A stretch of 36,771 nt of DNA from Methanobacteriota archaeon (GTDB taxonomy: Archaea > Thermoplasmatota > Poseidoniia > Poseidoniales > Thalassarchaeaceae): assembly GCA_002725315.1 (NCBI GenBank), contig PBOL01000039.1:1-36771 (forward strand). Reading direction: 5' to 3'. The position numbers were made by a program, and so were the translations under genes. Shown piece after piece: positions 33,284 to 34,459 of the stretch (position 1 is its first letter; the number at the start of each line of letters is the position of its first letter). The notes below the pieces were generated by a model. It saw only the letters and a list, made by a program, of their open reading frames with translations. It did no database searches and was not told the DNA's origin.

Positions 33284-33320
33284 GGGTCTGTAGGTCGCCG
33301 AGATGCTTCTTGGTGGTAGC

Positions 33321-33584
33321 ATGGCTGTTGAAAATTCCAATGTGGGACGCGTCGAGGAGCTCGCACAGTCGTGGCAAGACGAAATAGAAGGGCGCGTCAA
33401 GGGCCTTCAAACCGGTTCTTATGCAAGGATTCTGAAGATGGCAAAAAAGCCGTCTAAGCAAGAGTTCAGGCAAACTGTAATCGTCTGTGGAATTGGGATG
33501 TTCGTTCTTGGAGCGATAGGTTTCCTTATTCTTGCCCTCATGGTAAACGTCTTCCCATCATTCTTTGGATGGTTGACAGGATAG
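33321..33584 (+). CDS. secE: Preprotein translocase subunit SecE (Sec61-gamma)
   Basis: Small membrane subunit that clamps SecY in the protein-conducting channel. The C-terminal half shows the amphipathic surface helix and transmembrane helix of the family: KPSKQEFRQTVIVCGIGMFV followed by LGAIGFLILALMVNVFP. The N-terminal half is a hydrophilic extension of about 45 residues, longer than the minimal archaeal form. The ATG at 33321 has GGTGGTAGC upstream. It is followed by spt5, which begins 8 bases after the stop, the classic archaeal order. Confidence 0.9.
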   Translation: MAVENSNVGRVEELAQSWQDEIEGRVKGLQTGSYARILKMAKKPSKQEFRQTVIVCGIGMFVLGAIGFLILALMVNVFPSFFGWLTG

Positions 33585-33592
33585 GTGGGGTA

Positions 33593-34459
33593 ATGTCAGA
33601 GGCTTTCACGGTATACCTACGAAGCGGAGAGAAGGTCCTTCTAATGCAGAGGGCCGACGAGGTGGGTGACTTCCCAGGAGCATGGGATGGGATATATGGA
33701 ATAGGTGATCATGGCGACCTAGATTCAATAGTTGCTAGGATTACAGAATGCACAGGAATAGAGGCTGACAAACTGGAGATAGTTAGAACGGGAATGGCAA
33801 GAGGTTTGGCTTATGGAAACCGTTTGAATGACGTTACTCCGATATTGTTTGTCACAGAAGAGGTTGATGTGAATCCTGGTACTCTGTACAAGGGATTCGA
33901 GTGGGTAGACCCTGGGAGGATACATGAGAAGGAGTACGCAACCCCTCAACTAAAGGAGATGTACGGTGACGTTGCATCATACCTCTACATCCTGAAGACT
34001 TCAATAGGCCAAGAGCAGAACGTAGCAACTGAGATCAGAGCCAGACTCTCGGGGACCGGATCATTGAAGGACATACAAGACAAGATTTTCGGAGTCTTGA
34101 GTCCACACTTCATGAAAGGATACATCTTCGTTGAAGCAACTGCAATGCACCATGTTCAGAAGCTTATTGGCAGGGTAGGCGTCGGAGTGACGCCCCTCAA
34201 GAATTGTAGCAAGGTACTAGACGGAGAAAGCCCCTTGGAGGATGTTCTGCCCTACTTAGAGCCCAAGGCGGCAACCTCGGGAATAGAGGAGGGTTGCATT
34301 GTCGAAATATCTGGCGGAGCATTCCGTGGTCAGGCAGCTAGAGTGACAAGAGTGGCGGAATCTAAGGAGGAAGTAACCGTCGAATTGTTCGAGGCGGCGG
34401 TTCCAGTCGCCCTCACAGTTAGAGCCGATCAAGTCAGGGTTACCCAGAGGGTAGAGTAA
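33593..34459 (+). CDS. spt5: Transcription elongation factor Spt5 with an N-terminal Nudix-like domain
   Basis: Spt5 (NusG homologue) keeps RNA polymerase processive with Spt4. In 288 residues two parts can be seen. Residues 128-222 are the NGN domain (YILKTSIGQEQNVATEI, MKGYIFVEA) and 228-285 the KOW domain (SGIEEGCIVEISGGAFRGQ, then EVTVELFEAAVPVALTVRA), which is a full-length archaeal Spt5. Residues 3-125 are an extra domain with Nudix-fold marks: KVLLMQRADEVGDFPGAWDG, a box-like helix ending ITECTGIE, and KGFEWVDPGRI. The Nudix box is degenerate: of the RExxEE catalytic group only one Glu is seen, so it is probably not a hydrolase. The ATG at 33593 follows GGTGGGGTA. Confidence 0.9.
   Translation: MSEAFTVYLRSGEKVLLMQRADEVGDFPGAWDGIYGIGDHGDLDSIVARITECTGIEADKLEIVRTGMARGLAYGNRLNDVTPILFVTEEVDVNPGTLYKGFEWVDPGRIHEKEYATPQLKEMYGDVASYLYILKTSIGQEQNVATEIRARLSGTGSLKDIQDKIFGVLSPHFMKGYIFVEATAMHHVQKLIGRVGVGVTPLKNCSKVLDGESPLEDVLPYLEPKAATSGIEEGCIVEISGGAFRGQAARVTRVAESKEEVTVELFEAAVPVALTVRADQVRVTQRVE

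Follow-up and report, generated by a model that had tools for sequence, protein, structure and literature searches.

An inactivated Nudix-type domain precedes NGN-KOW in the elongation factor Spt5 of Poseidoniales archaea

The spt5 locus and its domain layout

The window analyzed here is the whole stretch of 36,771 nucleotides of a Poseidoniales contig, which comes from an archaeal assembly of 1.41 Mb. Toward its end, spt5 spans positions 33593 to 34459 of the forward strand and encodes 288 residues plus a stop codon in a single frame that is also open in relatives. The preliminary description had read this frame as a Nudix-like front continuous with a complete NGN-KOW Spt5, and both the coordinates and the continuity were reproduced. 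An alternative ATG at 33569 would add 8 residues; nevertheless, the start at 33593 was preferred, since it is conserved and is preceded in the sequence by a Shine-Dalgarno-like GGTG (33584 to 33587, forward strand). The gene sits between secE, its upstream neighbor on the same strand (33303 to 33584; PF00584, E = 1.4e-5), and the L11-L1-L10 ribosomal genes, and the order secE-spt5-L11-L1-L10 is the usual setting of spt5 in archaea.

As a separate observation on this neighborhood, the adjoining gene for ribosomal protein L11 (34542 to 34820) encodes the C-terminal RNA-binding domain only, approximately 92 residues. The N-terminal L11 domain (PF03946) was found in 0 of 60 Poseidoniales genomes and in 0 of the 39 Poseidoniales in a phylum sample. 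Among the other Thermoplasmatota, 104 of 107 possess this domain; these include the sister group, where L11 is full length. Half of this universal ribosomal protein thus appears to have been lost throughout the order.

The C-terminal 160 residues of the Spt5 protein were identified by profile matches. The NGN domain, approximately residues 130 to 212 (33980 to 34228, forward strand), was recognized by the Spt5-NGN profile PF03439 at residues 131 to 194 (E = 5.2e-11), as in archaeal Spt5. By phmmer it matches the Spt5 of Thermococcus and Pyrococcus, and the Thermococcus Spt5 in the PDB was matched by the Poseidoniales protein with an E value of 3e-23. The KOW domain follows at approximately residues 229 to 288 (34277 to 34456, forward strand). 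Here the KOW profile itself (PF00467) gives a weak match at residues 236 to 264, with 14.5 bits, under its cut-off of 22.3. The Spt5 equivalog profile TIGR00405 covers residues 132 to 286 with an E value of 6.5e-32 and 110.5 bits, against a cut-off of 69.95, and so places the protein within Spt5. By these profiles, this part of the protein is a standard archaeal Spt5 with a complete NGN-KOW.

Ahead of the NGN domain lies the predicted Nudix-fold domain, residues 1 to 129 (33593 to 33979, forward strand). Its Nudix helix (residues 43 to 54; 33719 to 33754, forward strand) carries a degenerate box, ARITECTGI, defined by alignment to intact stand-alone relatives and by counts across the order. 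The final Nudix helix (residues 120 to 128; 33950 to 33976, forward strand) was assigned from the secondary structure of the model and from a by-eye alignment that pairs it with the C-terminal helix of the stand-alone relatives. The domain had earlier been placed at residues 3 to 125; its Nudix part stands, and its end was moved to approximately residue 129 because the last helix spans residues 120 to 128. This helix leads straight on to the first NGN strand without a linker, suggesting a rigid junction between the two domains.

We also weighed a reading in which translation of Spt5 would begin separately, at an internal start close to residue 123, and the Nudix part would be a product of its own. 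A methionine occupies this position (M123) in 111 of 130 loci, which would suit such a start. However, a usable start codon near residues 123 to 126 is absent in 11 of the 130, and no Shine-Dalgarno-like motif was found ahead of M123 in any of them (0/130), against 110 of 130 for the upstream start. Moreover, M123 falls within the last Nudix helix, the counterpart of the C-terminal helix of the stand-alone proteins, and the full-length frame is unbroken in nearly all relatives. Two separate proteins are therefore barely credible, and the earlier reading of a single protein was upheld in the 130 loci in which internal initiation was sought.

Nudix identity and loss of the catalytic box

On the single sequence, the NUDIX profile PF00293 gives a weak match to residues 4 to 122 (E = 0.02, under the cut-off), and 13 of 22 members of the order match it, with a best E value of 1.8e-4. 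A profile built from the domain reached canonical stand-alone Nudix proteins of other Thermoplasmatota with E values down to 1e-17. Many of these proteins are 133 to 154 residues long, and those scanned are plain NUDIX by Pfam (PF00293, E = 1e-15 to 6e-19). Profile-profile comparison of the fused domain with the stand-alone Nudix family gave an E value of 3.3e-18 over 116 columns. In the opposite direction, the stand-alone profile scored 22 of 22 real fused domains between 6e-16 and 2e-10, whereas the best of the shuffled and reversed controls (440 shuffled copies) reached only 0.85. A sequence search of the PDB with the domain profile yielded Nudix matches that were all below threshold. Overall, once the alignment is used, the homology of the fused domain to accepted Nudix members is well above chance by sequence comparison. 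The domain does not belong with the type 1 isopentenyl-diphosphate isomerases, as the TIGR02150 score was 17.5 bits against a cut-off of 105.8.

The fold was also examined by structure prediction and structure search, the check that had been proposed for the Nudix identity. The AlphaFold2 model of residues 1 to 129 (pLDDT 82.3, pTM 0.78) shows strands and helices in Nudix order, and the best 50 matches in the PDB structure search all belong to the Nudix superfamily. The matches include Ap4A hydrolases, RppH, IPP isomerase, NrtR, and the C-terminal domain of MutY; MutT of Methanosarcina mazei superposes on the model with a TM score of 0.75 and an rmsd of 2.8. Since the alignment that fed the model contained only fused domains, all from one Poseidoniales family, the model is independent of the stand-alone Nudix sequences. 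According to the model, then, residues 1 to 129 are a Nudix fold. The model of the whole protein (pLDDT 59), whose significant PDB matches are NusG/Spt5 proteins only, was left out of any judgment of domain orientation.

The preliminary description had pointed out that most catalytic glutamates of the Nudix box are replaced, and this degeneracy extends over the whole order, as seen in the 105 distinct fused domains whose box could be read. The positions of the MutT metal ligands E53, E56, and E57 are occupied in the window by R49, E52, and C53 of the Nudix helix. Arg stands at the Glu53 position in 104 of the 105 domains, and the Glu57 position is Cys, Ser, Val, Ala, or Thr, never Glu, in all 105. 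The Glu56 position stays Glu in 98. All three positions are invariant Glu in the stand-alone relatives, and a DWEH segment conserved in the intact stand-alone proteins is gone from the fused domain. The hydrolase box GX5EX7REUXEEXGU with its metal-binding glutamates is thus lacking in the fused domain. Given the order-wide loss of glutamates and the missing DWEH segment, a classical metal-dependent Nudix reaction appears very unlikely.

The fused domain has been kept under purifying selection, with a dN/dS of approximately 0.07, an approximate ratio since dS is near saturation. Between the two Poseidoniales families the domain is approximately 40% identical, and 16 columns are invariant across both; the pocket-region residues R20, W31, G36, and P83 are conserved. 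Every one of 106 distinct fused domains is acidic, with net charges from -4 to -19 and medians of -9 (family f1) and -13 (family f2), and the NGN-KOW part is near neutral.

Distribution and origin of the fusion

A match to the protein was found in 58 of 60 relatives from both Poseidoniales families, nearly always over the whole protein, with a few of the 58 cut short by the end of a contig. In the two families, the listed Spt5 frames are nearly all approximately 290 to 320 residues long, the exception being one 197-residue frame (G233). Plotting the phyletic spread of the extension, as had been recommended, therefore places it in almost every genome sampled from either family. Raw Spt5 frames of the sister group f3, of the same class, are approximately 180 to 265 residues long, and in two cases just 16 and 23 residues precede the NGN domain from the likely starts. 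The sister group thus seems to have a plain Spt5 without the Nudix fusion.

A phylum-wide search with the domain profile returned only the fused copy in Poseidoniales, with no second copy, and outside the order matches lay only away from Spt5. A stand-alone Nudix gene is present in 2 of 3 sister-group genera, and when the stand-alone profile was used, the fused domain was the best match in most Poseidoniales genomes. In the tree, all 22 fused domains group together as a single clade with a long branch (support 100/100), separate from the genome's four other Nudix proteins. When 84,980 genomes were scanned, 191 relatives of the domain emerged, the best 80 of which are titled Marine Group II/Poseidoniales, Thermoplasmatota, or unspecified Euryarchaeota. 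A viral origin or spread was also considered and set aside, as a scan of viral contigs gave no relatives.

We conclude that Spt5 has here captured a Nudix domain, now inactivated, and that the closest kin of this domain are stand-alone thermoplasmatal Nudix proteins. In the simplest history suggested by these comparisons, a single fusion took place in the Poseidoniales ancestor and catalysis was lost afterward. A Nudix gene of the family that stands alone elsewhere in Thermoplasmatota would have come to lie directly before the single spt5, in frame and with no linker in between. The metal site of the captured enzyme would then have been lost after the fusion, and purifying selection would have retained the inactivated domain. 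The fused copy may be the original gene or a duplicate.

Two observations concern the stand-alone relatives themselves. In some genomes (L176, L180 to L184), a swivel domain of aconitase X (PF01989, E = 3.7e-27 in L180) carries a Nudix relative fused to its C terminus, and in L180 and L182 the adjoining gene resembles the aconitase X large subunit; this fusion and neighborhood suggest that the Nudix protein takes part in the mevalonate pathway of archaea. In several genomes (L168 to L171 and L175), the stand-alone Nudix gene forms a conserved pair with an adjoining gene resembling a PIN-domain/PilT-type ATPase.

The expectation that archaeal Spt5 consists of only NGN and KOW applies to the plain copies of approximately 150 to 180 residues, which many Thermoplasmatota have; however, it does not extend to the many Thermoplasmatota with unrelated N-terminal extensions. 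In several other families of the phylum (L146 to L157, L164, and L165), Spt5 carries a different extension of approximately 110 to 180 residues that, judged by eye, is probably beta-rich. These were considered as diverged Nudix copies and rejected, as none matched the Nudix profile and those scanned gave no Pfam Nudix. Families f7 and f28 have second Spt5 paralogues (L158, L159, and L161) with strongly basic N-terminal repeats, and L158, the only one of them scanned, matches the Pfam HNH_repeat (E = 7.7e-8). The variety of extensions suggests that different Thermoplasmatota lineages have repeatedly added modules at the front of NGN.

Possible roles of the captured domain and comparison with known systems

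The NGN domain fixes Spt5 on the clamp of RNA polymerase, and for this reason the acidic Nudix domain would be carried with the elongation complex. There it could act not as an enzyme but as a fixed docking surface, either for another protein or for a rearranged part of the polymerase. We rank docking on RNA polymerase first among the functions, while holding that the chances for and against it are about equal. A protein partner or a specific ligand is favored over a general grip on RNA or DNA, since the domain is acidic in every sequence and the NGN-KOW part is near neutral. Nevertheless, the conserved pocket residues are equally compatible with the binding of a ligand, and the full-length model, of low confidence, gives no orientation of the domain on NGN or on the polymerase. 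Among particular partners, nucleosome-type ones are unlikely, since searches of 40 Poseidoniales genomes (this one and 39 relatives) found no archaeal histone fold (PF00808) and no HU (PF00216). A role as a substitute for Spt4 is ruled out by the presence of Spt4 (PF06093), which was found in the same genome (E = 1.3e-12), in 56 of 60 relatives, and in 22 of 22 near-complete genomes.

Ranked second, and rather unlikely in our estimate, is that a nucleotide or phosphorylated metabolite binds uncleaved in the dead pocket and thereby changes the action of Spt5 on RNA polymerase. The Nudix domains of NrtR, which binds ADP-ribose, and of TRPM2 bind without cleavage and provide a model for such a sensor; the structure search also matched the ADP-ribose-bound form of NrtR. 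R20, W31, G36, and P83 lie on the pocket side, and the nearly invariant Arg that replaces a metal-binding Glu could hold a phosphate. The occasional fusion of stand-alone relatives to the aconitase X swivel domain hints at an ancestral metabolic ligand. The missing DWEH segment counts against a sensor, as it belongs to the intact relatives. A more general proposal, that the captured enzyme has become a regulatory part of Spt5 through which a ligand (a nucleotide or an isoprenoid phosphate) or a lineage-specific partner influences elongation, is one we put forward only tentatively.

The remaining possibilities fit the data less well. A domain that merely shields or stabilizes NGN as a spacer, with no specific partner, would agree with the continuity between the final Nudix helix and the first NGN strand and with the unrelated domains at the same place in other Thermoplasmatota, which suggest that the position tolerates additions; we consider it improbable, since invariant residues across two families with approximately 40% domain identity exceed what a spacer would be expected to need. 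Binding of nascent RNA or upstream DNA has a precedent in CFIm25, an inactive Nudix protein that binds RNA, and the RNA-processing enzyme RppH appears among the structural matches, but the acidity of all 106 distinct domains makes it quite improbable. An atypical reaction through the remaining residues is the least expected of these functions and would be surprising: the Glu kept at the E56 position and the unusual chemistry of some Nudix proteins speak for it, whereas two of the three metal ligands of the helix are lost order-wide, one of them swapped for a positive charge, along with DWEH. The preferred reading thus remains that of a docking surface, and in Poseidoniales a former metabolic enzyme is probably now carried on RNA polymerase and serves there as a module for binding.

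To our knowledge, Spt5/NusG is the only elongation factor common to all life, and its NGN-KOW core is usually regarded as invariant. An order-wide, folded, enzyme-derived addition to Spt5 in very abundant ocean archaea indicates that this core is able to gain new parts, and the fusion offers a clear test of how added modules affect RNA polymerase. Thermoplasmatota lend themselves to comparison, with a Nudix domain in Poseidoniales, probably a beta-rich domain or HNH-type repeats elsewhere, and plain Spt5 in others. The preliminary description had suspected that the fusion was undescribed; in agreement, no description was found in the open-licence literature on Spt5 in connection with Nudix domains, N-terminal extensions, Thermoplasmatota, or Poseidoniales (Marine Group II). 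The word Nudix is absent from both of two evolutionary surveys of NusG/Spt5 (PMC13289920 and PMC7593976).

Compared with known systems, the Nudix-Spt5 fusion is an order-wide variant of a known factor, Spt5. The Spt5 of Thermococcus and Pyrococcus (9bct and 3p8b) shares with it the complete NGN and KOW, the operon setting, and the Spt4 partner; however, the Poseidoniales protein adds approximately 129 residues of Nudix fold right before NGN. The stand-alone Nudix proteins of Thermoplasmatota (L167 to L172, L174, L175, L177 to L179, and L185) can be aligned with the fused domain over its whole length, but they retain the full box KEIEEETGL together with DWEH and are unjoined to Spt5. Non-catalytic Nudix domains are found in the MutY C-terminal domain, CFIm25, NrtR, and the NUDT9-H domain of TRPM2. 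As in Poseidoniales, the fold has been reused in these proteins for recognition and is often fused to another protein; in contrast, none of them is known to be part of an elongation factor, and the sequence kin of the Poseidoniales domain are thermoplasmatal enzymes. Finally, the N-terminal region of eukaryotic Spt5 is likewise acidic before NGN, but it is largely disordered, whereas its Poseidoniales counterpart is a folded, enzyme-derived domain.
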